Shown here in pieces: positions 23,068 through 45,922 of a stretch of 64,000 nucleotides of DNA. Positions within the stretch are counted from its first letter, which is position 1, and each line of letters begins with the position of its first letter. The stretch is taken from positions 6,696,001 through 6,760,000 of the forward strand of contig NZ_CP027712.1 of NCBI RefSeq assembly GCF_003945765.1, in the 5' to 3' direction. The translations under genes and the position numbers were made by a program. Source of the stretch: Pseudomonas chlororaphis subsp. chlororaphis. GTDB lineage: Bacteria > Pseudomonadota > Gammaproteobacteria > Pseudomonadales > Pseudomonadaceae. A model generated the notes under the pieces. It was not told where the DNA came from and ran no database searches. It was given only the letters and a program-made list of their open reading frames with translations.

Positions 23068-24030
23068 TTATTGGCAGCACTCAGCCAGGGACTGTTGCAG
23101 GGTGGCCACGTCCTGCGGCTCGCTGAAGATCAACTCGATACGTGAATCGCGGCGCCACTCGCTGGCTTGCCAGTGCAGCGCGGCGTTATCCAGGGCGTTG
23201 CCCGAAACCCAGCCCTGCGCACCGTGGATCACCAGCTTGGCCCGGCGCCAATCAAGGCTCGCCAGCCATTGCTCGAGGCACCGAACATCGAATACCTGGC
23301 TCGGGTGCCAGCGCCAACCGATGCTCCAGCCGCCCTCCTGGGCCTGGCTCAGGCAGATGGGCTGGGCCGGATCGGTCCAGATCGCCGGCAGCTGTGCCAA
23401 TCCCTTGGGTACTTCGAAGGCCTCGATGGCAGCCCCCGCGCGAGCCTCCACGCCAGGCAAGCGCTCCAGCGCCAAGGTCCCGCGGGTAGTCCAGAGCAGC
23501 GGACAGGCCGGCAACTGCTCGAGAATGCCCTGACGCTGCGCCGCGTCGAGCCCTTCGTCCTTGTTCAGCAGCAACAGGCCGGCACTGGGCAGCGCCTCCT
23601 GTTGGGCCTGCGGCAGCGGCTTGCCGGCCGCCAGCGCCTGGGCATCGAGGACCAGCACGCAAGGTTGCACGGCCAGGACCGTTTGCCAGGGCGCCTCGCG
23701 CAATTGCTGGAGCAGTTGCGCCGGGTGCCCCAGGCCGGAAGGCTCGATAAACAGGCGATCAGGCCGGGCCTTGCGCAACAGGCGCCCCAGGCCCACCTGG
23801 AACGGCGCGCCGTTGACGCAGCACAGGCAGCCGCCGGCCACTTCGCCCAGGGCGATACCGTCCTCGTCCCGGGCCAGCAGCGCCGCATCCAGGCCGATCT
23901 GGCCGAACTCGTTGATCAGCACCGCCCAGCGCTCATTGGCCGGACGCTGTGCCAACAGGTGCTGGATCAGGCTGGTCTTGCCCGCGCCGAGGGGACCGGC
24001 GATGACGTGGGTGGGGATGTTGTGCAGCAT
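23068..24030 (-). CDS. COG0523 (CobW-like) metal-chaperone GTPase, short form
   Basis: 320 residues. Walker A GPLGAGKTS (about residues 12-20), the metal-binding CxCC motif in GGCLCCVNG (about 67-75), an LFIEPSGLGHP switch region and LLLLNKDEGLD as the base-recognition loop are present. A C-terminal CobW_C-like domain ends in ECCQ, which could add metal ligands. COG0523 proteins deliver metals such as zinc to client enzymes using GTP. This copy is separated by a REP from the DUF1826 gene and lies in the same leftward run as the Zur-linked GTPase, so a zinc role is likely. It is clearly diverged from the 402-residue paralogue at 24885-26093. Confidence 0.88.
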   Translation of the reverse strand: MLHNIPTHVIAGPLGAGKTSLIQHLLAQRPANERWAVLINEFGQIGLDAALLARDEDGIALGEVAGGCLCCVNGAPFQVGLGRLLRKARPDRLFIEPSGLGHPAQLLQQLREAPWQTVLAVQPCVLVLDAQALAAGKPLPQAQQEALPSAGLLLLNKDEGLDAAQRQGILEQLPACPLLWTTRGTLALERLPGVEARAGAAIEAFEVPKGLAQLPAIWTDPAQPICLSQAQEGGWSIGWRWHPSQVFDVRCLEQWLASLDWRRAKLVIHGAQGWVSGNALDNAALHWQASEWRRDSRIELIFSEPQDVATLQQSLAECCQ

Positions 24031-24092
24031 GGGGGGAACGCTCGGAAAGGAGGTGATTGATCCTACGCGCTAACCCGCGGCAGCGAAATTCC

Positions 24093-24185
24093 CGTAGCCG
24101 CTGCCGCAGGCTGCGATAAGGCGCGCAGCGCCTTCCGAGGGCCTCAAGAGCACGTCTCCTGCGGAGCCGATCGCACAGCTACAGG
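24093..24185. repeat. REP elements between the DUF1826 and COG0523 genes
   Basis: GTAGCCGCTGCCGCAGGCTGCGAT at the left is matched by a degraded inverse copy (GCCGATCGCACAGCTACAG) at the right. The unit ends just before the DUF1826 stop codon at 24187. Confidence 0.7.
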
Positions 24186-24186
24186 G

Positions 24187-24884
24187 TCAGCCGAGCCAGT
24201 CCAGGGTGAGGATCAGCCGGCGCTCGCCGGGGGCCGGTTGCGGCGAGCGGTGGATCAGGCCGAAACCCTCGTTGCCCAGCCATTTCTCACCCTTGAACAG
24301 GGCCACCTCGCCGCTGGCCATCTGCTGGATCAGCGCGGCATCCGTGGGTTCGGCCTCGGCCTGGCCCAGTTGCCGACGATCCATCGCGCCCTCGCGCAGC
24401 CATTGGCTACCGGCGCCGGCATAGGTGGTGATCAGCCGTACCGGCACATGGTCGACATGAAAACGCGGGCACATGGCCTTATCCAGCACCCGCAGGCGCA
24501 GGCCGACGCGCTTGGCGCCCAGCAGGCAGGCAAAGGCGCTGACCAGCCAGGCGACATCGGCGATAAAACCATCGTAGCCCTGCAGATCGCTGAAGCCAGA
24601 AGCCAGGCCGCGCAGGTTCGGCTCGGCGTCCTCGGTGTCGAGTTCCAGCGACAGCGACTCGGCCAGCGGCTCGTTCAACGACAGCAGCAAGGCGCCGAAA
24701 TCGGCGATATGCGCCGGCAACTGGCGCTGCCACAGGGCCAGGTTGACCTCGTCGTCCAGCGCCTCGGCGAGGACGATAGGGGCCGGGCCGCAAGCCTCGC
24801 GGCGTATCGGTTTGTGCAGGGTTGGCCGCAGGAGCGGCTTCGCAAGCAGGTTCGCTCCCACAGGGGACAGTGGTTGGTAGAGCA

Positions 24885-24885
<1 letters not shown>
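24187..24885 (-). CDS. DUF1826 family protein of the zinc-starvation run
   Basis: 232 residues. From about residue 37 the protein shows the DUF1826 pattern: VLAEALDDEVNLALWQRQLP, GLASGFSDLQGYDGFIADVAWLVSAF, RVLDKAMCPRFHVDHVPVRLI and a C-terminal GLIHRSPQP. The HVDH and HRSP motifs resemble the metal-binding core of Rhizobiales- and pseudomonad-type Fe/2OG-like oxygenases, though this is only a suggestion. DUF1826 genes repeatedly neighbour COG0523 genes. The ATG at 24885 overlaps the GTPase stop codon. Residues of about 8-24 (VGANLLAKPLLRP) are the translation of a REP element, so the native start may be further in. Confidence 0.75.
24824..24866 (-). repeat. REP element inside the 5' end of the DUF1826 gene
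   Basis: Minus strand reads GGGAGCGAACCTGCTTGCGAAG followed by CCGCTCCTGCGGC, a standard Pseudomonas REP with its own inverted partner. It lies within the annotated coding frame about 20-60 bases after the ATG. Confidence 0.75.
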
Positions 24886-26093
<1,208 letters not shown>

Positions 26094-26126
26094 CAGGTGA
26101 TCCTCATCGGGGGCTGGGGGGCTGGG

Positions 26127-26546
26127 TCAGATCGCCCGTTGATGGCGTTCGCGCAGCTCTTGGCGTTCTTTGGCTTCGATACACAGGGTGGCGGTGGGCC
26201 GCAGCAGCAGGCGCCTGAGGCCAATGGCCTCGCCGGTTTCGCGGCACCAGCCGTACTCGCCACGGGCCAGGCGTTCGAGGGCTTCGTCGATCTTGTCCAG
26301 CAGCTTCTTTTCCCGCTCCAGCAGGCGCAGTTGCCACTGACGCTGCTCTTCGGCGCTGCCGATATCGGCGGGGTCGCTGTGGGGCTCCTGCTCGCGCAGC
26401 ACCTCGAACTCACCGTCGATGCGCTCTTGCAGCTCGACGCGCTGGGCCAGCAGCAGCTCACGGAAATAAGCCTGCTGGACATCGTTCATGTAGTCCGCCT
26501 CGGGCTGGGCGAGAAGTTGCGCTTCGGTCATCGGGCGTTCAGTCAT
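26127..26546 (-). CDS. dksA2: DksA2, zinc-independent DksA paralogue
   Basis: 139 residues with the DksA coiled coil (about residues 30-105) including the acidic tip DPADIGSAEEQRQW, then the globular part GEYGWCRETGEAIGLRRLLLRP followed by TATLCIEAKERQE. Normal DksA has four zinc Cys (CxxC and CxxC); here the pattern is CxxT and CxxA, so only two Cys remain and structural zinc is not expected. It binds RNA polymerase and mediates the stringent response with ppGpp when zinc-dependent DksA fails. The ATG at 26546 begins 28 bases after a Zur-type palindrome; an in-frame ATG at 26531 is an alternative. Confidence 0.95.
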   Translation of the reverse strand: MTERPMTEAQLLAQPEADYMNDVQQAYFRELLLAQRVELQERIDGEFEVLREQEPHSDPADIGSAEEQRQWQLRLLEREKKLLDKIDEALERLARGEYGWCRETGEAIGLRRLLLRPTATLCIEAKERQELRERHQRAI

Positions 26547-26574
26547 GGTGGGTCACGGGTCAGGCTTTATTTAA

Positions 26575-26589
26575 TGTTATAGTATAACA
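26575..26589. promoter_or_regulatory. Zur box between dksA2 and the secreted-protein gene
   Basis: TGTTATAGTATAACA is a near-perfect inverted repeat that matches the core of the gammaproteobacterial Zur consensus. It lies 28 bases before the dksA2 start and 76 bases before the divergent gene's start, so zinc-loaded Zur should block both. Confidence 0.88.
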
Positions 26590-26665
26590 ATACAAATAAG
26601 CCAACCCTCTCTTGCCGCCCGCGACGAAGGGCGGGATGCTTGAGCCTCCCCAGCCGAGAAACCCC

Positions 26666-27046
26666 ATGCGCCACGCCTTGAAATACACGCTGCTGAGCCT
26701 GTCCCTGCTGGTCGCAGACACCGCCATCGCGCAAGTGCCCAGCGCCCTGGCCACCTGCACCCGCAGCGCCAACCTGCTGGCCTGCGTGGATGCCGAAGGC
26801 AACGCCTACAGCGTCGCGGCCGCGGGCAGTACTACCTATCTGCGGGGTTTCGAGGTCACCGGCAAACGTTATTGGGCGCAGACCAACAGCCGCTACGGCC
26901 AACTGACCTTCTTTACCGGCCTGGCCTCCGACGGCGAAGCCTGGGTCGGCTACAGCCAGCGCGTCGGCTGGACCACCCGCAACCGCTTTTCCAGCTCCGG
27001 CGGCAGCAGCGGCAAGTTCACTTGCAGCCGGATCACTGGCTGCTAA
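26666..27046 (+). CDS. Small secreted Cys-containing protein, probably zinc-repressed
   Basis: 126 residues. The signal peptide RHALKYTLLSLSLLVADTAIA is followed by a mature part of about 104 residues starting QVPSALATCTRSANLLACVD. The rest is rich in Tyr, Ser, Thr and Gly (SVAAAGSTTYLRGFE; GKRYWAQTNSRYGQLTFFTG) and ends CSRITGC. Four Cys are placed in two pairs near the two ends, suggesting two disulfides; there is no His cluster. I do not recognise the family. The start is the ATG at 26666 directly before the signal peptide. It diverges from dksA2 across a Zur box, so expression under zinc limitation is expected. Confidence 0.75.
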   Translation: MRHALKYTLLSLSLLVADTAIAQVPSALATCTRSANLLACVDAEGNAYSVAAAGSTTYLRGFEVTGKRYWAQTNSRYGQLTFFTGLASDGEAWVGYSQRVGWTTRNRFSSSGGSSGKFTCSRITGC

Positions 27047-27058
27047 GCAAAGCATTTT

Positions 27059-27147
27059 GTAGAAACGAGGCTTGCCCGCGATGAACGCTTACGCGGTATA
27101 GCTGATACACCGCAGCGTCTTCATCGCACGCAAGCTGTGCTCCTATA
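27059..27147. repeat. Degenerate REPIN
   Basis: GTAGAAACGAGGCTTGCCCGCGATGA at the left is matched by a degraded inverse copy (TCATCGCACGCAAGCTGTG, then CTCCTATAG) at the right. It lies between the convergent secreted-protein and amidase genes. Confidence 0.7.
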
Positions 27148-27165
27148 GAAGAAGGCTGGGCCGCG

Positions 27166-28386
27166 TCAGGCCTGAGCTTTTTTCTGTTCCTGCAACCAGG
27201 CCATATAGCTGTTCACCGGCGGATTCTTCTGGAAGTAGCTCTGCAAGCCCGCGAACAGCCCATCGGCAATCGCCTGCTGGTGCCGCGCGGTGACTAGGCG
27301 CTGGCTGTCGCGACTGTTGGAGATGAAGCCCGTCTCCACCAGGATCGAGGGCACGTCGGGGGACTTGAGCACCGCGAAACCGGCTTGTTCCACGCGCTTC
27401 TGATGCAGGGTGGTGATGCCCGCCAGGCTGCCCAATACGGTACCGCCCAACTGCAGGCTGGCGGCGATGGTGGCGTTCATCGACATGTCGAGAATCACCC
27501 CGGCGAGCATCGGGTCCTTGTCTTTCAGGTTGAGCAGGCTGGTGGCGCCCAGCAGGTCGGCGCCGTTCTCCCGCTGCGCCATGAAGCGCGCCGTGGCCGA
27601 CGTCGCACCACCTTCCGACAGCGCGTAAACCGAAGCCCCGGACGCCGTCAGGCGTGGCGCCGCATCGGCATGCACCGAGATAAACATGTCGGCCTTGTGC
27701 TTGCGGGCGATCTCCACCCGCTTGCGCAGCGGCACGAAGAAATCGTCGTTGCGCACCAGCTTCACATCGAAGCCCTTCTCACGCTTCAACCGCTTGGCCA
27801 GCAGCTGGGCGATCGCCAGCACCACATCCTTCTCCCGTTCGCCACGGGCGCCGACCGCCCCCGGGTCCTTGCCGCCGTGACCCGGGTCGACCACGACGAT
27901 GATGTCGCGCTTGGGATGCGCCCGGTCCGCCGGTGTTTCACGCGGCAAAGCGGGAGCGGCGACCGCCGCGATCTGCTGCGGGACGCGGCTGGTATTGCTC
28001 AGATCGAGCACCAGGCGGTGGCCCTGGCCGTCCTGGGGTGGCAGCAAAAAGCTGTCGAGCCGCTGCGGTTCGGCGAGGTCGAGGACGATCCGCGTATCGC
28101 CCTGGCCAAAGTGCCCGGAACGGATCGAGCGAATCGGCGTGTTGGCCAGGGCCAGTTGGCTGAAATCGCCGCTGAGCTGCGCGCCGCGAAGGTCGATGAT
28201 CAGCCGTTCCGGCGCGCTGAGAGAGAAGGTCTTGTAGTGCACCGGCCCACTCAGATCGAGCACCAGGCGCAGCTTGTCGGCCGAGTTCCATAACCGCAGG
28301 TTGCGAATCTGGGTGGCGGACACCCCCACAGGCAGAACCAAGGCCGCGCTGGCCAACAGCAGGTTGAGCAACTGACGTCTGTGCAT
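27166..28386 (-). CDS. N-acetylmuramoyl-L-alanine amidase (AmiC-like, AMIN + Amidase_3)
   Basis: 406 residues with a signal sequence (RRQLLNLLLASAALVLPVGVSA), an AMIN domain (about 25-130) that binds peptidoglycan near the septum, a linker, and an Amidase_3 catalytic domain from about 165. Zinc ligands are visible in DPGHGGKDPGAVG (His), in the Glu of GARGEREKDV and in ISVHADA (His); the catalytic Glu is in LVETGFISN. It cleaves the stem peptide from glycan in the periplasm during cell separation. It diverges from folE2 over a Zur box 84 bases from its start, so it is probably a second amidase made when zinc is short. It still keeps the usual zinc site. Confidence 0.92.
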   Translation of the reverse strand: MHRRQLLNLLLASAALVLPVGVSATQIRNLRLWNSADKLRLVLDLSGPVHYKTFSLSAPERLIIDLRGAQLSGDFSQLALANTPIRSIRSGHFGQGDTRIVLDLAEPQRLDSFLLPPQDGQGHRLVLDLSNTSRVPQQIAAVAAPALPRETPADRAHPKRDIIVVVDPGHGGKDPGAVGARGEREKDVVLAIAQLLAKRLKREKGFDVKLVRNDDFFVPLRKRVEIARKHKADMFISVHADAAPRLTASGASVYALSEGGATSATARFMAQRENGADLLGATSLLNLKDKDPMLAGVILDMSMNATIAASLQLGGTVLGSLAGITTLHQKRVEQAGFAVLKSPDVPSILVETGFISNSRDSQRLVTARHQQAIADGLFAGLQSYFQKNPPVNSYMAWLQEQKKAQA

Positions 28387-28469
28387 GACTTACACCGCAG
28401 ATTGAGGAGCATCCGTACTCGAAAGGCTTGGTGAAAAAACGTTCAGGAAAAAGGTTTCATCGACCGCAT

Positions 28470-28484
28470 TGTTATAATATAACA
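28470..28484. promoter_or_regulatory. Zur box between the amidase and folE2 genes
   Basis: TGTTATAATATAACA differs at one base from the box at 26575 and fits the Zur consensus core. It is 32 bases before the chosen folE2 start and 84 bases before the amidase start, so it can control both divergent units. Confidence 0.9.
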
Positions 28485-28515
28485 TGGCGAATTGTTTCCA
28501 ACGATGGACCTGCTC

Positions 28516-29412
28516 ATGAATGCGCTGACTCTGCCGGATATCGCCGCGCAGGCCGCACGCCAGGCCCTGCCCCTTGAGTGGGTGGGCATGTGTGGCATTG
28601 CCTTACCTGTGTTGTTTGATGGCCAGCGGATTGGCGCAACAGCGGATGCCGGTGTCAGCCTCGACGACGGCGAAGCCCGTGGCATTCATATGTCGCGCCT
28701 GTATCTGGCGCTGGAAATGCTCGAACAGGAAAATCTCACCCCGGCCCTGATGCGCCAGGTACTGCAACGTTTTCTCGACAGCCACGACGGGCTGTCCAGC
28801 AGTGCCTACCTGCGAATTCATGCCGATCTGCTACTGAAACGCCCCGCCTTGATCAGCCCGTTGGCCGGCTGGAAAACCTATCCAGTGAGCATCGAAGCGC
28901 ACCTGAAAAACGCAATGTTCCACGTGGAACTAAAAATCGAGGTGCCTTATTCCTCGACGTGCCCTTGTTCCGCCGCGCTTTCCAGGCAGCTGATTCAGCA
29001 ACAATTCATCGATGATTTCGCCAACCGGGCGCTGCACCATGAAGACATCCTGACCTGGCTCGGCTCCTCGAAAGGCATAGTCGCCACGCCCCACAGCCAG
29101 CGCAGCACCGCGCAATTGCAGCTGCGCCTGGATGACTTTCTCGACGAGTTGCCGTTGATGGCGGCGATCAATGACGCCGAAGCCGCCCTCGGCACCGCCG
29201 TGCAAACCGCGGTGAAACGCGCCGATGAACAAGCCTTCGCCCTGGCCAACGGGCAAAACCTGATGTTCTGCGAAGACGCCGCGCGCCGCCTGAACCTCGC
29301 CTTGCAACGTTCGCCAGGCATCCGCGCCTTCCAGGTGCGCGTGGTGCACGCCGAAAGCCTGCATGCCCATGACGCCGTGGCCGAGAGCCGCTGGAACTGG
29401 GAGCTCGCATGA
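28516..29412 (+). CDS. folE2: GTP cyclohydrolase FolE2 (type IB)
   Basis: 298 residues of the FolE2/COG1469 family: VEWVGMCGIALPVLFDG near the start, FHVELKIEVPYSSTCPCSAALSRQ with the conserved Cys at about residue 149, a His-containing FANRALHHEDIL stretch and the Glu of VVHAESLHAHDA. It makes dihydroneopterin triphosphate for folate and works without zinc, replacing FolE under zinc limitation. ATG 28516 (MNALTLPDI) is chosen because conservation starts there; ATG 28504 and TTG 28492 are in frame. It is first in a rightward run reaching thrS, and a Zur box lies just upstream. A parS palindrome lies inside the coding region. Confidence 0.95.
   Translation: MNALTLPDIAAQAARQALPLEWVGMCGIALPVLFDGQRIGATADAGVSLDDGEARGIHMSRLYLALEMLEQENLTPALMRQVLQRFLDSHDGLSSSAYLRIHADLLLKRPALISPLAGWKTYPVSIEAHLKNAMFHVELKIEVPYSSTCPCSAALSRQLIQQQFIDDFANRALHHEDILTWLGSSKGIVATPHSQRSTAQLQLRLDDFLDELPLMAAINDAEAALGTAVQTAVKRADEQAFALANGQNLMFCEDAARRLNLALQRSPGIRAFQVRVVHAESLHAHDAVAESRWNWELA
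28916..28931. other. parS site (ParB-binding palindrome)
   Basis: TGTTCCACGTGGAACT contains the perfect 14-base palindrome GTTCCACGTGGAAC of the bacterial parS consensus and departs from the 16-base form at the last position only. It is embedded in folE2, where it encodes FHVEL. Chromosomal parS sites cluster around the origin in Pseudomonas. Confidence 0.85.
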
Positions 29413-30077
29413 TCAGCCTGCAATCGCTACGTTGGGGCGCGCCCGGCCAACCGCTGACGCCGGCACTCGACCTTGAGCTGGAGCCCGGCAGCCTGACCGC
29501 CATCATCGGCGCCAACGGCTCGGGCAAAAGCAGCCTGCTGAAAGTCATTGCCGGCCTGCAAAAGCCCTTGGCCGGGAAGATCAAGTTGCAGGTCCCTCGC
29601 CGTGGCGGCCTGTCCTTTCTGCCGCAGCAGCAGTACCTCGACCGGCAGTTCCCCATCACCCTGCAGGAATTGGTGGCCGCCGGTTTCTGGGGCGATCGGC
29701 AAAGCGCGCAACAGCGTGCCGGACGTTTGCAGCAGGTGCTCGCAGACTGGTGCCTGAGTGGCCTGGAACAACGCCCGTTGATGGCCTTGTCCGGCGGCGA
29801 ATTGCAGCGTGCCCTGCTCGCCCGCCTGAGCCTCGCCGATGCCCCGCTGTTGCTGCTGGACGAACCCCACGCCGCCCTGGACGAACTGGGCCAGGCCCTG
29901 CTGTGGAAACACATCCACACCTGGCAGCAGCAAGGTCGCACGCAAATCGTGGTCTGCCATGACCTCGCCGCCGTGCGCCAGCACATCCCCCAGACCCTGC
30001 TGATCAAGGCCAGCGGTTGCCGGTTCGGCAGCAGCGAGGAACTGATCGTCCAGCCCATTCAGATGCAGGTGGCCTGA
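29409..30077 (+). CDS. Metal ABC transporter ATP-binding protein (ZnuC-like)
   Basis: 222 residues. Walker A GANGSGKSS is at about residues 35-43, the Q-loop at FLPQQQYLD, the signature LSGGELQRALLARLS near 129-142 and Walker B LLLLDEPHAALD just after, followed by the switch His in VVCHDLAAV. It would power uptake of zinc (or another divalent metal) with the permease and binding protein encoded next. The ATG overlaps the end of folE2 and the stop overlaps the permease start, so translation is coupled. The binding protein's ligand set favours zinc. Confidence 0.9.
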   Translation: MISLQSLRWGAPGQPLTPALDLELEPGSLTAIIGANGSGKSSLLKVIAGLQKPLAGKIKLQVPRRGGLSFLPQQQYLDRQFPITLQELVAAGFWGDRQSAQQRAGRLQQVLADWCLSGLEQRPLMALSGGELQRALLARLSLADAPLLLLDEPHAALDELGQALLWKHIHTWQQQGRTQIVVCHDLAAVRQHIPQTLLIKASGCRFGSSEELIVQPIQMQVA

Positions 30078-30943
30078 TGCTCGCCGCCGCCCAGCTCTGG
30101 CAGCCCTTCCACGAGTTCGTGTTCATGCGCCGGGCATTGCTCGGCGGCCTGGCGCTGGCATGCAGCACCGCACCGTTGGGGGTGTTCCTGATCCTGCGGC
30201 GCATGAGCCTGATCGGCGACGCCGTGGCCCACGGCATCCTCCCCGGCGCGGCGCTGGGCTTCTGGTTCGCCGGGCTGAGCCTACCGGCACTGACGCTTGG
30301 CGGCCTCGGCGCCGGACTCGGCATGGCCGGCCTGGCCGCCTGGATTACCCGGCGCACCGGCTTGCGCGAGGACGCCAGCCTGGCCGCGATCTACCCGATT
30401 TCCCTGGCCAGCGGCGTGCTGATTCTCGGCCTCGCCGGCAAACGCCTGGACCTGCTGCACCTGCTGTTCGGCTCGGCCCTGGCGGTGGACGGGCCGACCC
30501 TGGAGGGCATGCTCTGGGTCTCCGGGTTCAGCCTGCTGGCCATGGCGCTGATCTACAAGGCACTGCTGCTGGATACCCTCGACCCACTGTTCCTCAACAG
30601 CGTCAGCCGCCTCGGCCCCCTCGCCCACGGCCTGTTCCTGACCCTGGTGGTGCTGAACCTGGTGATCGGTTTCCAGGCCATCGGTGCCTTGATGGTGGTC
30701 GGCCTGATGATGCTGCCGGCCGCCGCCTCGCGCTTCTGGAGTCGGCGCCTGCCGGTGCTGATCGGCATTGCCGCGCTGCTCGGTTGCCTCTCGGTATGGC
30801 TCGGCCTGTTGCTGTCGTTCCACTACTCGCTGCCCAGCGGCCCGGCCATCGTCCTGGTGGCGGGCGGCCTGTACCTGCTGTCCGTGGTGTTCGGTCCGGT
30901 GCACGGTCTGCTGCGCCGCCCGCCTTTGCTCACATCCCCATGA
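30077..30943 (+). CDS. Metal ABC transporter permease (ZnuB-like, ABC-3 family)
   Basis: 288 residues with about eight membrane spans and the ABC-3 features: FMRRALLGGLALACSTAPLGVFLILRRMSLIGDAVAHGILPG, then LAAIYPISLASGVLILGL, the coupling segment and a C-terminal GFQAIGALMVVGLMMLPAAASRFW. The start is the ATG at 30077 overlapping the ATPase stop; the frame is open earlier but only as a shadow of the ATPase. It forms the inner-membrane channel of the zinc-starvation importer. Confidence 0.9.
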   Translation: MLAAAQLWQPFHEFVFMRRALLGGLALACSTAPLGVFLILRRMSLIGDAVAHGILPGAALGFWFAGLSLPALTLGGLGAGLGMAGLAAWITRRTGLREDASLAAIYPISLASGVLILGLAGKRLDLLHLLFGSALAVDGPTLEGMLWVSGFSLLAMALIYKALLLDTLDPLFLNSVSRLGPLAHGLFLTLVVLNLVIGFQAIGALMVVGLMMLPAAASRFWSRRLPVLIGIAALLGCLSVWLGLLLSFHYSLPSGPAIVLVAGGLYLLSVVFGPVHGLLRRPPLLTSP

Positions 30944-39868: not shown

Positions 39869-41773
39869 CTACAACTTGAGCAATGGCTCCTGGAAACGCA
39901 GCAAACGCCCGGCATTGCCCAGCACCAGCAAGGTGCTGAGGTTATGCAGCAGCGCCGCGATCATCGCCCCCGCCGCGCCAAGCCAGCCGAACGCGGCAAA
40001 GGCGACTATGGCCAGGGTCCAGCCCAGGCCGATGATCACATTGACCTGCAGGGTCTGGCGGCACTGGCGACTCAGGCGCACACAGGTGCCGAGGCGCCGC
40101 AGGTCGCTGCCGATCAGCACGATATCGGCCGACGCCAGGGCAATGTCCGCCCCACCCGCGCCCATGGCCACACCGACCACGCCAGCCTTGAGCGCCAGGG
40201 AATCGTTGATCCCGTCGCCCACCACCATCGGCCGGAAACCGCTGTCGATTTCCCCCAGCACGCGCTTGAGTTTGTCTTCCGGTAACGCCTGGGCTTCGAC
40301 ATCGCCGATGCCGACATCCCGCGCCAGGCTGTCGGCCACGCTCTGGCGGTCGCCGGTCAGCAACAACTGGCGGCCCAGCCCCAGTTCGCGCAGCTCGTCG
40401 AGGGCAAACCGCGCTTCCGGCTTGACGCTGTCGGCCAGCAACAGCCAGGCGAGAAATTCACCGTTCAGCGCCAGCCCGGCAATCGGTCCGTCATGTTCGG
40501 GCACCGCCGTGGTGGCGATGTCGAGCTGGCCGAACAACTCGGGACGCCCCAGGGCGGCTTCGCCCTGCTCGGTCTGCGCCACCACTCCCAGCCCCTGGCG
40601 TTCGCGAATATCCGACAGCACCAGGAAATGCTCCTGGGCCACCAGGCCGGCCAGCGCGCGGCTGACCGGGTGGCTGCTGGCCGAACCGAGGCTGGCCGCC
40701 AGGTTCAACAAGGCCTGGCGATCTTCCCGCGGGCTGTCGATCGATTGCAGGCGCAAGGTGCCGAAGGTCAGGGTGCCGGTCTTGTCCACCACCAGCGAGG
40801 TCAGATCCGCCAGTTCCTCGAGGAACGCCGAGCTGCGAATCAGGATGCCGTGCCGCGCCGCCACGGCGATCCCGGCAATCGCCGTGGCCGGCGCGGACAG
40901 CACCAAGGCACAGGGGCAGGCCGCCACCAGCACCGCGAGCATCGCCTGGGCATCGTGGGTGATGAACCAGGTCACCGCCGCCAGCAGCAACACCAGCACC
41001 ATGTAACTGCCGGCGTAACGTTCGAGCAAACGGGTGATCGGCGGCTTGGAACGTTCGGCGCTTTGCATCAGCGCGATGACCTTGCCCAAGGTCGATTCGT
41101 GGCCGGTGCGGGTCACTTCCAGGCGCAACAGGCCGTCGAGGTTGATCGCCCCGCCGAACACCTGCATGCCGACATCGGCCTCCAGCGGCACCGACTCGCC
41201 AGTGATCGGTGCGGTGTCGAGGCTGGCCTGTCCGGACAGCACCAAACCATCGGCGGGCACCCGGTCACCGGCACGCACTTCGACGACATCGCCGGCCTTG
41301 AGCGTGGCGTTGTCCACCTCGCCAATGCTGCCATCGGCCTGCACCAGGCGCGCATGGCTGCGGGTCAAGCGGCCCAGGGCATGAATGGCTTCCTGGGAGC
41401 CGATCACGCTGCGCTCTTCCAGCACGTGGCCGAAGATCATGATGATCGGCAACAGCGCCGCGGTCAGCAGGTCGCCGGTGGCCCAGGCGCCGAGCATGGC
41501 CAGGGCGATCAACTGGTCGGTGATGCCGTGCAGGCTCGGGTAACGCAGGCTGTACCAGGCCGAACGCATCACCGGCAGTGCCACCAGTAACGAAGCGAAA
41601 CCCAGCAGCAACTGGCTGACGCCGGTCTGCTCCGAGGCCAGCCAGCGCCAGACCAGGCCCAGACCGAGCAGCCCCAACGCGAGCATGGCCAGGGTCAGCT
41701 GACGCGCGGCGCTACGTTGTTCTGCGGAGGTGAGCATGCTCGCCGGCGCGGCGGCATGGGTGTGGGCAGTCAT
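39869..41773 (-). CDS. hmtA: P1B-type metal-transporting ATPase, HmtA-like
   Basis: 634 residues, with no cytosolic HMA metal-binding domain at the N-terminus but a short His-containing tail (MTAHTHAAA). P-type landmarks: APITGESVPLE near residue 190, ACPCAL near 286 in the sixth membrane helix, the phosphorylated DKTGTLT near 329, SSHPVSRAL near 370 and GDGINDSLAL near 523. The CPC motif places it in the P1B group that moves Cu, Zn, Cd or Pb. P. aeruginosa HmtA, a related protein lying beside HflK/HflC-like genes, was reported to import zinc and copper, so import is proposed here too. It is last in a four-gene leftward operon with overlapping junctions and a Zur-like site upstream. Confidence 0.85.
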   Translation of the reverse strand: MTAHTHAAAPASMLTSAEQRSAARQLTLAMLALGLLGLGLVWRWLASEQTGVSQLLLGFASLLVALPVMRSAWYSLRYPSLHGITDQLIALAMLGAWATGDLLTAALLPIIMIFGHVLEERSVIGSQEAIHALGRLTRSHARLVQADGSIGEVDNATLKAGDVVEVRAGDRVPADGLVLSGQASLDTAPITGESVPLEADVGMQVFGGAINLDGLLRLEVTRTGHESTLGKVIALMQSAERSKPPITRLLERYAGSYMVLVLLLAAVTWFITHDAQAMLAVLVAACPCALVLSAPATAIAGIAVAARHGILIRSSAFLEELADLTSLVVDKTGTLTFGTLRLQSIDSPREDRQALLNLAASLGSASSHPVSRALAGLVAQEHFLVLSDIRERQGLGVVAQTEQGEAALGRPELFGQLDIATTAVPEHDGPIAGLALNGEFLAWLLLADSVKPEARFALDELRELGLGRQLLLTGDRQSVADSLARDVGIGDVEAQALPEDKLKRVLGEIDSGFRPMVVGDGINDSLALKAGVVGVAMGAGGADIALASADIVLIGSDLRRLGTCVRLSRQCRQTLQVNVIIGLGWTLAIVAFAAFGWLGAAGAMIAALLHNLSTLLVLGNAGRLLRFQEPLLKL

Positions 41774-42828
41774 GGTTGGGCTCCCTGAATAATCAGGCGG
41801 GAATCGTCTTGGGGATTGACCGTGGTCACCGAGCCGGCCTGGCCGAGAATCTTCGGCAGCCGTTCGCGGTAGATGCGCAGGAGCATTTCCGGGTCGGTGC
41901 CGTTGCGTTGCGCCTGGGCCAGGCCCTGGATGGTCGCGGTGTCGGCCTGGGCCTTGGCCAGGCGCTCACCAGCCTGGGCGTGCGCCACCTGCAAGGTGCG
42001 GTCGGCCTGTTCGTTGGCGGTTTGCGTGAGTTTTTCGGCTTCGGTGCGAGCGTTGGCCACCGCCTTGTCGGCTTGCTGGCTGGCGGTCAGCACCGCGTTG
42101 AAGGCGCTGACCGCCGGCCCCGGCAGACTGGACTGGACGTCGACCCGGGTCACCTCGATGCCGATCCCCTGCCCGGTCGCCGCCAGATCCGCCAGCCGTT
42201 GGTTGATGCCTTGCACCAGATCGCCGCGCAGCCTTTCGCGACGCTCGGCGGCCTGATTGTCGGCGCCGATCAGTTCCGGACGCGCCACCAATATCGTGTC
42301 GAGATCGCGGGCGGCGGTCAGGGCCAGGGCACTGCGGGTCACCAACCGATCCAGCGCCGGCAACACATGTTCGCCCTGCAATACAAAGGCATAAGGCTCG
42401 GTGACCTTATAGAACACCCGCACATCCAGCTGCACCACCCCGGCGTCGCCGGTCAGCAGATAACCGGAACCGGCCAGGGCATCGCTCAGGGGAACGGCGA
42501 AACTGGCCACCTTGTCACCCTTTAAGGCCGCATCGGAACGCAGCAGGCTTTCCACCCGGCGTTCGATCACCCGGTCTGCGGCGGGCAACAGCACCACCTG
42601 TTCGAACGGCTGCGGCCAGGCCAGTAACAAGCCGGCGTTCTGGATGCGATCCAGGGCGCCGAAATGCAGGACCACCGCGCGATTTTGCGGATCGATCTGC
42701 CGCACATTGGAAAACGCCCAGGCCAGGGCTGCCAGCACGGTCACCGCATACAGGGCGAGAAACGCCAGGCGACCGGCCTGAATCCATGGGCTGCCAAGTT
42801 CATGTGTTCCACGTGGAACCAAACTCAT
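41770..42828 (-). CDS. SPFH-domain membrane protein (HflC/HflK-like), nearest the ATPase gene
   Basis: 352 residues. A membrane span at about 18-41 (LAFLALYAVTVLAALAWAF) is followed by an SPFH/Band 7 domain, IDPQNRAVVLHFGALDRIQNAG, with VQLDVRVFYKVTEPYAF, ending in a long Ala/Gln/Glu-rich helix (about 235-300) typical of stomatin-like oligomer rims. The HflK-like layout suggests a cage in the inner membrane with its bulk in the periplasm. It overlaps the HmtA-like gene and the His-rich SPFH gene by four bases. The start codon region contains a parS palindrome that encodes VPRGT. Confidence 0.85.
   Translation of the reverse strand: MSLVPRGTHELGSPWIQAGRLAFLALYAVTVLAALAWAFSNVRQIDPQNRAVVLHFGALDRIQNAGLLLAWPQPFEQVVLLPAADRVIERRVESLLRSDAALKGDKVASFAVPLSDALAGSGYLLTGDAGVVQLDVRVFYKVTEPYAFVLQGEHVLPALDRLVTRSALALTAARDLDTILVARPELIGADNQAAERRERLRGDLVQGINQRLADLAATGQGIGIEVTRVDVQSSLPGPAVSAFNAVLTASQQADKAVANARTEAEKLTQTANEQADRTLQVAHAQAGERLAKAQADTATIQGLAQAQRNGTDPEMLLRIYRERLPKILGQAGSVTTVNPQDDSRLIIQGAQP
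42805..42820. other. parS site (ParB-binding palindrome)
   Basis: TGTTCCACGTGGAACC holds the perfect 14-base palindrome GTTCCACGTGGAAC of parS (42806-42819). It lies at the beginning of an SPFH gene, 13.9 kb from the parS in folE2. One further copy is needed to call a dense origin-proximal cluster. Confidence 0.85.
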
Positions 42829-43865
42829 GGTTGCGACCCGGCGGCTTTATTGCCGAGTGTCGGCGGCCCGTCCACCAGCACCCGGAACGGCGCGGCATCG
42901 GTGCGCAGAATCAGCTTGGTGCCTGGGGTCACCACAGTGCCCAAGGTGTCCAGCGACCGCAGCAGGTTGTACAGCTGCGGCGAACCGGCGTAGGCGCGAC
43001 CGTAGATCTCCGCCGCCTGCACCCGCGATTGCGCTTCGATGTCCGCGGCTTTCACCGTGGCATCGGCCTGGACGATGCGCGCATCGCGCTCGGCGGCGGA
43101 ACGGATTTGCGCCGCTTCGCGCTTGCCGATGGCCGTGCGTTCGGTGGCGATGGTTTCACGCTCGGCGCGCATACGATCGACGGTGGCGGTCAGGGTCACC
43201 GAGGGCAGGGTCAGGCGCTCGACACCGACTTGCAGCACCCGCACCCCGTAAGTGCTCAACAACTGTTGCTCGATCTGTTTACGCAACTGGGCTTCGAAGT
43301 CGGCGATGCGCACCTTGCTGGCATCGGTGTTCACCAGATTGGCCAGGTCGAAACTGCTGGCGGTGGTTTCCAGGGCCGAACCGACAAAGGTACGAATTTG
43401 CCGCGCCGCTTCATCCGGCTGGTTCTGCACCGCGCGCATAAAGCGCTTCACGTTGTCCGCATCGCCCTGCACCTGCCACGCCACATAGGCCTGGACGATG
43501 ATGCGCAGACCGTCGCGGGTGCCGACATCCTGCAAACCGCTGGAGGTGGTGCGCAGGCGCAGATCCACCGGGATCGCCGCCTCGAACGGTGCCGGCCAGC
43601 GCCAGCCGAGGCCCGGTTCCAGCAGCACCCGCGCCGGGTTGCCGAAACGGGTAATCACCGAGGCTTCGCCGGAGCGCACTTGCACCAGGCTCGCCGCGGC
43701 GACGGCGAACAACACCAGCAACAGCGCCCAGGCCATGCGCCGCCAGGGAAAGGGCCCCGCCTCTTCCGGCGCGCCGTGGTGATGATGGTGTCCGTGGTGA
43801 TGGCCGCCGTGGCCGTGATCGTGGCCGGCGTGATCCTGATGATCGTGGGAATGGGACTGGCTCAA
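42825..43865 (-). CDS. SPFH-domain protein with His-rich N-terminal tail
   Basis: 346 residues. The first 31 hold 15 His in the pattern HSHDHQDHAGHDHGHGGHHH followed by five consecutive His, a strong candidate for binding zinc, nickel or copper. A membrane span follows (about 44-64, MAWALLLVLFAVAAASLVQV), then an SPFH domain (SVITRFGNPARVLLEPGLGWRW; IIVQAYVAWQV) and a long helical region (about 225-300) ending in LDTLGTVVTPGTKLIL. With an N-in topology the His tail would face the cytoplasm. It overlaps both neighbouring genes by four bases. A metal-buffering scaffold for the HmtA-like ATPase is a reasonable but untested idea. Confidence 0.88.
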   Translation of the reverse strand: MSQSHSHDHQDHAGHDHGHGGHHHGHHHHHGAPEEAGPFPWRRMAWALLLVLFAVAAASLVQVRSGEASVITRFGNPARVLLEPGLGWRWPAPFEAAIPVDLRLRTTSSGLQDVGTRDGLRIIVQAYVAWQVQGDADNVKRFMRAVQNQPDEAARQIRTFVGSALETTASSFDLANLVNTDASKVRIADFEAQLRKQIEQQLLSTYGVRVLQVGVERLTLPSVTLTATVDRMRAERETIATERTAIGKREAAQIRSAAERDARIVQADATVKAADIEAQSRVQAAEIYGRAYAGSPQLYNLLRSLDTLGTVVTPGTKLILRTDAAPFRVLVDGPPTLGNKAAGSQP

Positions 43866-45829
43866 TGGACGGCTCCTGGCTGAGCGGTGTTACCCGGTAC
43901 CGAAGGCTCGGTCGGCAAAGTGAATGTACGCAGGTCGAGGGTCGGTGCGTTGGCGCCGCCCAGGCGATGATCGAGCACCAGCAACTTGGCGTTGCGCAGG
44001 CCCTGGCTCAGCTGGCTCAAATACTGCTCCAGCACGAATGCCTGGCCGGCGCTGGCATAGGCCTTTTGCTCGGCGCTGAACCGCAGGTCGGCCGCTTGCG
44101 CCGTGGCCTGCACTTCATGGGCCGTGGCCTGGGCCTGATCGCGGGCGATGCTGGCCTGCAATTGCGCCTGGTTAGTCTGCTCGCTGGCCGCGCCACGCTC
44201 GCGGGAGATCAGCGCCTGGGCGCCGATCTGCGCGGCCTGGACGCCGTGATAAGCATTGGCGGCGCCGGCCGGCGGGTGAATGGCCTCGACCACGGTGGCG
44301 AGAATCTCCACCCCGCTGTCGAGTTTCTCCAGGTCGGCCTGCACCGCGCGGCCGATATCCTCGGCCAGGTTGGTACGGTCTTCGCCCAGCAGGCCGTCGA
44401 GGGTGCGCGAGGCGAAGTCGTGGACCAGGATGCGGCTGGCGGTGCTGCGGATCAGCATCGGAATGTCGGCGCTGTTGTAAGTCGCCGCCAGCGCCGCCTG
44501 ATCGCTCAGGCCGATGCGATAGACGAAGCGCACGTCCATGTTGACGATCTGGAAGCTCTGCTTGTCGGCAGCGCCGCTGGCGATCACTTGGGACTTGTCG
44601 TTGACGTGGCTGGCGTCCCACAAACGGTTGGCCACCAACGGGGGCGGCCCTTCGGCGGAGGCCGGTTCGATCACGCCGGGCGCTTCGCCGACGCTGGTGG
44701 CCAGCTCGTGCACCACGCCGTTCTCGACACTCAGCACCCGGCCCAGCGGCCAGGGCAGGCCCGCATGCAAACCCGGGCCAAAGACCGCCACCGGCTTGCC
44801 GAAACGCTCGTAGATGCCCCGCCCCTGCAACGGCACTTCATGCAGGCCGGTGAGCAGCCAGCCCACCCCGAGCACCACCAGCAGCACCGGCAGGAACGCG
44901 CGGCGCATATAAGTGAAGGCCCAGATCTGCCGCAGGTCGATGCCGAAGCGGTTGTGCAATTCGTGCTGCAAGGCCAGCAAGGGTTGTGGCGGCCAGCGCA
45001 GCAGATCGGCGACCACGCTATGGGCCAGCATGCGCGGCTCCAGTTGCGCGCGACGCGGGCTGAATAACGACAATACCGCGCGCAGCAGGAACTCCAGGGC
45101 CACCAGCGCCGGCAACACGCCGATCAGCACGCCCAGGCGCACCGGCCAGAGCGCCGTGTCGCTGCTGAACAACAGGCACAGCGCCGCCAGCACCAGGCTG
45201 ATGATCGCCACTCGCGCCAACTGCGCCAGCGCCGCCGCTTCCGGCCATTCGCCGGGGTGTTCCTGGCTCAGTTGGCGCTCGAACACCAGCAAGCCGAAGG
45301 CCAGCAACAGCGCCAGCACCGCGCCGACATTGCCCGCCAGGCCCAGGGTTCCAGCGGGCAGGCCGAGGTTCCACGCCTGCTCGATCACCAACAGCACCAG
45401 CAAGGCCCAACCGCCCAACCACAAGGTCGGCGCGCCGATCTGCACCAACAAACTGGACCAACGCCGGCTGATGCCATCCAGCAGCCGCTCGTACCAGCCA
45501 TCGTCGGGTAGCGGTTCATCCGCAACCGGCTCCGGGCTCGGCGCCACCTCTGGCGCCTGCAACGCACCCGCGCGCCAGGCACTGACCCAGCCCGCCGCCT
45601 GCAGGCCGCCGACCAGCACCAGCAAGGCCGCGGCCAGATTGACCAGCAACGCCGGCCATAAGGATTGCGGGGCAAACAGGCCGACGAAAAACGCCAACAC
45701 CAGCCCCATCCCGGCCAGCCCCGCCAGCCCGATGCCCCAACGCTTCAGACGGCGTTCGTGAAAGGCCGCCCGCTGAAACCTCGGCAAGGCTTCGACCCCC
45801 GCCCCTTCAGTCTCAAGATCGACTTGCAT
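43862..45829 (-). CDS. Large polytopic SPFH-domain protein
   Basis: 655 residues. An N-terminal block of about six membrane spans (roughly residues 30-320, including LVLAFFVGLFAPQSLWPALL, LWLGGWALLVLLVIEQAW and FLPVLLVVLGVGWLLTGL) precedes an SPFH domain, LQGRGIYERFGKPVAVFGPG, then VDIRFVYRIG-like strands and a helical C-terminus rich in Gln and Ala (SEQTNQAQLQASIARDQAQA), ending in a hydrophilic tail. This is about twice the usual HflK size. It is the first gene of the quartet; the ATG at 45829 follows GGGGTG, while an in-frame earlier start at 45901 is not protein-like and would overlap the Zur-like palindrome. Confidence 0.85.
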   Translation of the reverse strand: MQVDLETEGAGVEALPRFQRAAFHERRLKRWGIGLAGLAGMGLVLAFFVGLFAPQSLWPALLVNLAAALLVLVGGLQAAGWVSAWRAGALQAPEVAPSPEPVADEPLPDDGWYERLLDGISRRWSSLLVQIGAPTLWLGGWALLVLLVIEQAWNLGLPAGTLGLAGNVGAVLALLLAFGLLVFERQLSQEHPGEWPEAAALAQLARVAIISLVLAALCLLFSSDTALWPVRLGVLIGVLPALVALEFLLRAVLSLFSPRRAQLEPRMLAHSVVADLLRWPPQPLLALQHELHNRFGIDLRQIWAFTYMRRAFLPVLLVVLGVGWLLTGLHEVPLQGRGIYERFGKPVAVFGPGLHAGLPWPLGRVLSVENGVVHELATSVGEAPGVIEPASAEGPPPLVANRLWDASHVNDKSQVIASGAADKQSFQIVNMDVRFVYRIGLSDQAALAATYNSADIPMLIRSTASRILVHDFASRTLDGLLGEDRTNLAEDIGRAVQADLEKLDSGVEILATVVEAIHPPAGAANAYHGVQAAQIGAQALISRERGAASEQTNQAQLQASIARDQAQATAHEVQATAQAADLRFSAEQKAYASAGQAFVLEQYLSQLSQGLRNAKLLVLDHRLGGANAPTLDLRTFTLPTEPSVPGNTAQPGAVH

Positions 45830-45903
45830 AGCACCCCAACGCTGGTCGTTAACCCATTCGGGCCTGTGGATAACTCTCCGGCAGGCCGCTGTATTTGTCA
45901 CAA

Positions 45904-45922
45904 ATCGTTACGATATAACGAT
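45904..45922. promoter_or_regulatory. Zur-like palindrome upstream of the SPFH-HmtA operon
   Basis: ATCGTTACGATATAACGAT is an imperfect 19-base inverted repeat. Its core keeps the GTTA...TAAC half-sites of the two good Zur boxes and differs at four of 15 central positions from the folE2 box. It is 75 bases before the SPFH gene's ATG and about 150 bases before the divergent CDP-alcohol transferase gene. Binding by Zur is plausible, not certain. Confidence 0.5.

Follow-up and report, generated by a model that had tools for sequence, protein, structure and literature searches.

Introduction

SPFH proteins are widely proposed to be general membrane organisers, and the function of most of the rings that they form in bacteria is an open question. 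Among the closest described systems to the one discussed here is the hmtA locus of Pseudomonas aeruginosa (PA2434-PA2439), which by its description holds an HflK-type, an HflC-type and a third SPFH protein together with a P1B ATPase, has a Zur site and is induced by zinc starvation; others are the HflK/HflC-FtsH complex of Escherichia coli, in which the SPFH domains of HflK and HflC are periplasmic (PMC2636767; PMC12048511), and the mycobacterial PacL1-CtpC platforms, in which a P1B pump and a metal-binding membrane partner share one operon (the papers cited here by PubMed Central identifier, and the reviews referred to, are represented by part of their text). In this article, I will discuss an operon of Pseudomonas chlororaphis subsp. 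chlororaphis in which three SPFH genes (A, B and C) are followed by a gene for a P1B ATPase (D), found in a stretch of 64,000 nucleotides of contig NZ_CP027712.1 (positions 6,696,001 to 6,760,000) that I will call the window. The operon resembles the hmtA locus in gene order, gene content and Zur site and differs from it in that 9 of the 13 g230 loci, taken as the P. aeruginosa group, carry a small gene between C and D and the window has none. With HflK/HflC-FtsH it shares the SPFH domain, K-type and C-type subunits and a periplasmic orientation, which for A is a prediction and for B and C follows from homology, but it has two K-type subunits and one C-type, a polytopic A, scores below the equivalog cut-offs and a P1B pump as partner. 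PacL1, for its part, is a DUF1490 protein and not an SPFH protein.

The best reading, in my opinion, is a dedicated SPFH-transporter machine, given that the four genes form a unit, that the SPFH genes are tied to the pump, that one of the SPFH proteins has a conserved His-rich tail and that a second lineage carries a CDF transporter fused to an SPFH protein. Whether this amounts to one membrane machine, an A-B-C ring or cage together with D, all made at once under zinc shortage, seems to me about evenly poised. Zinc-starvation induction and Zur binding are already in print for the hmtA operon of P. aeruginosa, and what is new here are the counts of co-occurrence and synteny, the conservation of a tail rich in His in B, and a parallel trio headed by a CDF-SPFH fusion. 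The partly available literature yielded no role for the SPFH proteins of the hmtA operon, and among the matches listed in open-licence PubMed Central nothing was found that links SPFH or HflK with P-type ATPases.

Four genes inherited together

Genes A to D run in this order on the minus strand of the window, and each junction is an overlap of four bases:

43862-45829, minus strand: gene A, 655 aa from its ATG, polytopic HflK-type SPFH protein, counterpart by order of PA2439 (PaFlo5)
43862-43865, minus strand: A/B junction, overlap of 4 bases
42825-43865, minus strand: gene B, 346 aa, TTG start, HflC-type SPFH protein, counterpart by order of PA2438 (PaFlo6)
42825-42828, minus strand: B/C junction, overlap of 4 bases
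41770-42828, minus strand: gene C, 352 aa, HflK-type SPFH protein, counterpart by order of PA2437 (PaFlo7)
41770-41773, minus strand: C/D junction, overlap of 4 bases
39869-41773, minus strand: gene D, 634 aa, P1B-type ATPase, HmtA-type by neighbourhood

In Pfam, Band_7 is above its cut-off in A, B and C, and D carries E1-E2_ATPase and Hydrolase. Gene A shows 98% identity to a protein cluster with 110 members that bears the name P. chlororaphis. The host genome, a single contig of 6.81 Mb, contains six Band_7 stretches, these being A, B and C, a pair at 636-638 kb that is taken as the canonical hflK/hflC, and one at 210 kb. A first-pass annotation of this DNA had proposed a four-gene unit with four-base overlaps at every junction, consisting of three HflK/HflC-type proteins and a CPC-type P1B ATPase, with one oversized SPFH protein carrying about six extra spans and a His-rich tail on another, in a neighbourhood of the hmtA type; the coordinates, the Pfam domains and the CPC motif of D bear this out, the extra spans lying in gene A (residues 35-252) and the tail at the N-terminus of B before its membrane span, and three SPFH genes followed by the P1B ATPase recur in 37 of 37 family loci. 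Going by the order and kind of its genes, which are the basis of the comparison with PAO1 and PA14, the operon is the counterpart of the P. aeruginosa PA2439-PA2435 (hmtA) operon.

The four genes are also inherited together. In the family survey (cut-offs of E<=1e-30 for A, 1e-60 for B and 1e-120 for D), A, B and D are present in the same 37 of 248 Pseudomonadaceae genomes, spread over three genera, and in a sample of the phylum searched with B (E<1e-90, a cut chosen once the gap from 1.9e-91 to 2.0e-82 was known) and with D (E<=1e-120), both occur in the same 11 of 398 genomes; scoring in these surveys was limited to the few best first-look candidates in each genome, the two samples have 8 operon-bearing genomes in common, and genomes that are related do not count as independent observations. 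None of the family genomes, at the cut-offs used, had any of A, B and D without the other two, and none of the phylum genomes had B or D alone. The order A-B-C-D holds in 40 of 40 loci, 37 of them in the family, the window included, and three outside it (two in f177 and one in f210, with the four genes in order in each, although gene B is split by a stop in L173). The first-pass annotation had held that its proposal would fail if the SPFH genes occurred mostly without the ATPase in other genomes, and these counts go the other way. In 274 evenly drawn genomes of the class, A had matches in 154, and among the matches listed full-length cover was seen in its own genome only; homologs of A in protein searches include those of Entomomonas, Utexia and Sodalis.

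These counts bear on the idea that the grouping is regulatory only, with A, B and C acting as general membrane organisers under zinc shortage and having no physical link to D, which I consider quite improbable. It draws on the wide proposal that SPFH proteins organise membranes in general and on a 2026 study that names the P. aeruginosa SPFH genes PaFlo5-7 and suggests their horizontal transfer, and in which their deletion left growth in lysogeny broth (LB) normal, reduced biofilm by about 20% and attenuated the strain in Galleria, the effects reported being small (PMC13086221); the available part of its main text has no mention of hmtA. Set against it are the genomes, in which A, B and D are never apart in the family sample, nor B and D in the phylum sample, at the cut-offs used, the three loci outside the family where all four genes stand together, and the fusion of a CDF transporter to SPFH in the parallel trios described below.

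A parallel trio with a fused transporter

The survey of the class brought up a gammaproteobacterial locus (L102, 6027-9722) with three SPFH genes, in the first of which a Cation_efflux (CDF) domain precedes the SPFH domain; the protein of this first gene scores 68 bits with PF01545 against a cut-off of 26.6. Both domains are present in 120 of 120 proteins, these being the best 120 of 171 matches with the query's own record included, and 118 of the 120 contain ExxHxxxD and DxxHxxxD, which I take to be the Zn-type pair of sites in CDF transporters; the fusion profile matches FieF, ZnT1 (SLC30A1) and HflK in PDB. A scan of one genome each from 84,980 species gave 27 loci, of which 25 (L116-L140, all metagenome-assembled) carry the fusion family, L141 and L142 being no fusions, L119 being the same contig as L102 and L116 having the CDF part of its fusion past the contig end. 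Their titles name Desulfobacterota, Acidobacteria, SAR324, Planctomycetota, Spirochaetales, Gammaproteobacteria and others, and the gene order is fusion, C-type, K-type in 24 of the 25, with the remaining L117 ending with its contig.

This trio is like the window operon in its order of polytopic K-type, C-type and K-type, in the seven spans before the first SPFH domain (one of those in the fusion assigned by hand from the CDF fold) and in an HPP motif, which is common to the homologs of A (239/240) and the fusion proteins (120/120) and is absent from the 29 canonical HflK examined, as judged at the first PP of each (three had no PP). It differs in that the transporter is a CDF protein fused in cis, in that no D-like ATPase was found within the available locus DNA of the 27 scan loci (several fusion contigs are short, and neighbours could be missed), and in that the second protein has no His-rich tail in the 10 sequences aligned. 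The SPFH domain of the fusion is predicted to lie on the exit side of the transporter. In profile scoring, the SPFH domain of A scores best with the fusion profile in 37 of 37 orthologs (median 115.6 bits against 104.8 for HflK), and B scores best with the second trio protein in 37 of 37 (186.9 against 141.3 for HflC); L018 stands outside the canonical set, L010 was dropped from this scoring and L117 was left out of the trio. Among the matches listed in open-licence PubMed Central, no description of a CDF-SPFH fusion was found, and the available part of PMC2636767 has no mention of cation, transporter or metal; a description elsewhere is possible.

Taken with the window operon, the fusion trios raise the prospect of a class of caged metal transporters, in which a K-C-K SPFH trio would form a periplasmic compartment over an evolutionarily interchangeable transporter, either a P1B ATPase encoded beside the trio (Pseudomonas and a few others) or a zinc-type CDF protein fused to the first subunit (Desulfobacterota, Acidobacteriota, Planctomycetota and others), a generalisation that I put forward tentatively and would rate just short of even. 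As a separate observation, FeoB-like genes lie near the trio in L117, L123, L124 and L125 and DtxR-like regulators in L123 and L125 (by eye, from the starts of open reading frames), and the metal of the FeoB-adjacent loci may be iron or manganese rather than zinc.

The SPFH proteins

Within the SPFH proteins of the window, the following parts stand out:

45074..45727, minus strand: residues 35-252 of A, six predicted transmembrane spans (span prediction)
44189..44827, minus strand: residues 335-547 of A, Band_7/SPFH domain (Pfam), with the HPP motif H518-P519-P520 near its end
43773..43865, minus strand: N-terminal tail of B, rich in His (15 of 31 residues), ahead of the membrane span

The reading frame of A stays open as far as a GTG at 45901, yet 36 orthologs align from the ATG; the GTG sits a few bases from the Zur-type box described below, and an automatic annotation could choose such an unlikely start. 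The usual SPFH span of A (residues 311-329) follows the six extra ones, and the charge bias (15 K+R inside against 3 outside) places the SPFH domain of A in the periplasm, as in HflK/C. The six-span domain has no significant match in Pfam, PF01545 included, and no invariant His or Asp was seen between residues 35 and 252 in 57 homologs. That it might be a hidden CDF transporter was considered and is not supported, with an HHalign probability of 0.1 of 100 and no Pfam match; span number and predicted topology do agree with CDF, so a very remote relation may exist.

The His-rich stretch precedes the sole span of B in 37 of 37 orthologs (11-20 His) and would be cytosolic by analogy with HflK/C topology. 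None of the three reaches the NCBIfam hflK/hflC equivalog cut-offs (57 bits for A and 90.2 for C against 159.4, and 93.8 for B against 134.4). A 100-row tree assigns A and C to the HflK side and B to the HflC side (100/100), which makes two K-type subunits and one C-type.

A rival explanation, to which I would give a rather low probability, is that A, B and C are adaptors of FtsH, itself a zinc protease, and determine how long D or other transporters persist in zinc shortage. HflK and HflC surround FtsH and regulate how it reaches membrane substrates (PMC12048511), two FtsH-type genes lie elsewhere in this genome, and the sub-threshold NCBIfam matches point the same way; however, the operon has no FtsH gene, the presumed canonical hflK/hflC pair is separate at 636-638 kb, co-inheritance is with D, and in the CDF fusion a trio is joined to a transporter.

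The ATPase and the direction of transport

Gene D has the marks of a P1B pump, with E1-E2 ATPase and HAD domains, CPC, DKTGTLT and SSHP, and two positions in it concern the metal site:

40910..40918, minus strand: CPC motif C286-P-C288 of D, both Cys invariant in 37 orthologs
39944..39946, minus strand: H610 of D, in the last span (HNLST), invariant in 37 orthologs

Its closest solved structure is 7qbz (E 1.5e-74), a P1B pump annotated as cadmium translocating, followed by ZntA (4umv, 1.3e-69), and H610 aligns with the His of HEGST in the former and with the Asp of DTGAT in the latter. If, as I presume, P1B-2 pumps (ZntA type) are marked by CPC with a Lys and an Asp in the last two spans, and P1B-4 pumps (CoaT type, to which I take 7qbz to belong) by SPC and HEGxT, then D misses both sets: it has CPC, but GLGWT stands opposite ALGLK and HNLST opposite DTGAT in the 4umv alignment, and it has CPC in place of SPC and HNLST in place of HEGST. 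Since the Cys of CPC and H610 are kept and HNLST is unlike both DTGAT and HEGST, the metal site of D is, as judged from the alignments, unusual. The N-terminus of D is His-rich in 13 of 13 g230 loci, and in the window it has only two His.

P1B ATPases are normally exporters, as CDF transporters usually are, and D may accordingly be one too, removing under zinc shortage the wrong metals let in by induced importers, or loading periplasmic enzymes, inside or outside an SPFH cage; I regard this as unlikely, though the most credible of the rival explanations. It is in keeping with 7qbz being the closest solved relative, ahead of ZntA, with the CDF transporter of the parallel fusion and the predicted position of its SPFH domain on the exit side, and with His-rich cytosolic tails, which could feed an exporter. 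Reviews report, on the other hand, uptake of Zn and Cu by HmtA and higher cellular levels of both metals when it is overexpressed, and the control of the operon resembles that of zinc-uptake systems. Import by D would follow by analogy from the published overexpression work on HmtA, as relayed by those reviews. The regulation and the published work on HmtA are consistent with uptake, and the usual behaviour of P1B and CDF transporters with export, the CDF-SPFH fusions fitting export at least as well as import; Zur control together with the HmtA import data slightly favours uptake.

Zinc control

Upstream of A lies a predicted site, in front of an operon that the first-pass annotation had thought to be preceded by a weaker Zur-type site and to be under zinc control:

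45907-45919, minus strand: Zur-type box GTTATATCGTAAC, starting 90 bp upstream of the ATG of A

The box (GTTACGATATAAC at 45907-45919) agrees with GTTATNNNATAAC, which I take to be the Zur consensus, at 9 of 10 positions. Its genome-wide rarity was rejected as an argument, there being 30 places with at most one mismatch against 39 for a reversed-pattern control; a single box is therefore not beyond chance, and conservation is what counts. Within 250 bp upstream of A, the best site reaches at least 8 of 10 in 35 of 37 loci and at least 9 of 10 in 24 of 37, against 7.6% and 0.6% of shuffled regions, respectively (plain letter shuffles, and the 37 loci are related). In L093 and L090 no site of at least 8 of 10 was found in the 250 bp upstream of A, and neither the best site of L083 (-197) nor the reported register of L089 and L095 is the homologous box. 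The three loci outside the family have boxes scoring 10, 9 and 8 of 10.

Both expectations thus hold, the second by way of P. aeruginosa, where zinc-starvation induction and an electrophoretic mobility shift assay of the PA2439 promoter have been published, the promoter being fully shifted by Zur only with zinc (PMC8531726). In a znuA mutant, PA2439 was up 9.0-fold, PA2438 10.6-fold, PA2437 14.4-fold and PA2435 (hmtA) 5.6-fold, and a weak Zur site was noted at the PA2439-PA2435 genes (PMC4542158). Low-zinc proteomics found PA2435 and PA2437-PA2439 elevated, with many p values above 0.05 (PMC11761036), calprotectin raised HmtA (PMC8557868) and N-acetylcysteine raised PA2437-PA2439 (PMC9431628). 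In a later review, hmtA is named as an exception to Zur binding (PMC10393844).

Discussion

How might such a machine work? In zinc shortage, Zur would leave the promoter and the four proteins would be made together; A, B and C would assemble in the inner membrane like HflK/HflC, with their SPFH domains in the periplasm, into a ring or cage that encloses or anchors D, with the six extra spans of A as the likely membrane contact with the pump. His-rich cytosolic tails (that of B, and in the g230 relatives also that of D) could hold metal at the cytosolic face of the pump, and the cage would provide a private periplasmic space at its outer mouth, where metal might be collected for uptake or passed to a periplasmic client. 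I infer the cage, its contact with D, the role of the tails and the direction of transport, the periplasmic cage by analogy with the structure of HflK/C; the gene unit, the co-occurrence, the domains, the conserved tail and box and the parallel CDF-SPFH trio are observed.

Several points weigh against this reading. In P. aeruginosa, deletion of PaFlo5-7 caused no growth defect in LB and otherwise small effects (PMC13086221), and hmtA mRNA was low and did not fall on addition of zinc, which speaks against tight zinc control (PMC8531726). The foci of the mycobacterial PacL1-CtpC pump form without flotillin, so pump clustering needs no SPFH proteins in general. The charge pattern of B and C is neutral (2 and 2), leaving their orientation to rest on homology with HflK/C, and no CDF homology is detectable in the span domain of A (HHalign 0.1 of 100). 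As to a common origin of the two trios, C scores better with canonical HflK than with the third trio protein in 37 of 37 (94.0 against 72.8), and trees of 100 rows (out of 242) and 42 rows group A with C and not with the SPFH domain of the fusion; a joint clade of A and the fusion SPFH is not rejected (p-AU 0.13), B joins the second trio protein in a 32-row tree (96/100) and not in the 100-row tree, and approximately unbiased (AU) tests reject none of the alternatives tried on whether A, B and C derive from the CDF trio (p 0.13 to 0.38). The profile scores would favour such descent for A and B, not for C.

Even so, the trio was not seen without the pump at the cut-offs used, and together with a case in which the transporter is covalently attached this gives bacterial SPFH rings a concrete function to consider, that of a compartment around a metal transporter. 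Their shared presence and absence with the pump in one lineage and the fusion of transporter and ring in another suggest that these SPFH rings probably hold metal pumps, and I conclude that SPFH trios are dedicated partners of metal transporters, probably as periplasmic cages. A dedicated machine would also offer a reason for the small effects of PaFlo5-7 deletion, growth having been measured in LB, and might help to explain the working of HmtA, for which import by a P1B pump is claimed.

Variation around the operon

In 9 of the 13 g230 loci, a gap of 627-662 bp between C and D holds the small gene, these being L089, L091, L093-L096, L097, L099 and L100; the one example scanned, from L097, encodes 161 aa with a signal-like start and no Pfam match, and by its order the gene is perhaps the counterpart of PA2436. 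The genome of the window has three perfect Zur-type boxes, two of them in the window (26576-26588 and 28471-28483) beside DksA-like and FolE2 genes, and both fall in a second zinc-stress block (23068-30943, about 9-17 kb from the operon) that contains two CobW-type GTPases, a DksA-like protein, an N-acetylmuramoyl-L-alanine amidase, FolE2 and an ABC-3 type transporter. A DUF692-like motif occurs within 3 kb after D in 9 of 22 same-genus loci (L072, L067, L068, L069, L075, L076, L082, L085 and L087), and in L072 (10014-11974), the one locus scanned, it belongs to an MbnB/TglH/ChrH enzyme (PF05114) flanked by a small Cys/Lys-rich protein and a DUF2063 gene, an arrangement that looks like an operon for a metal-binding ribosomally synthesized and post-translationally modified peptide (RiPP).

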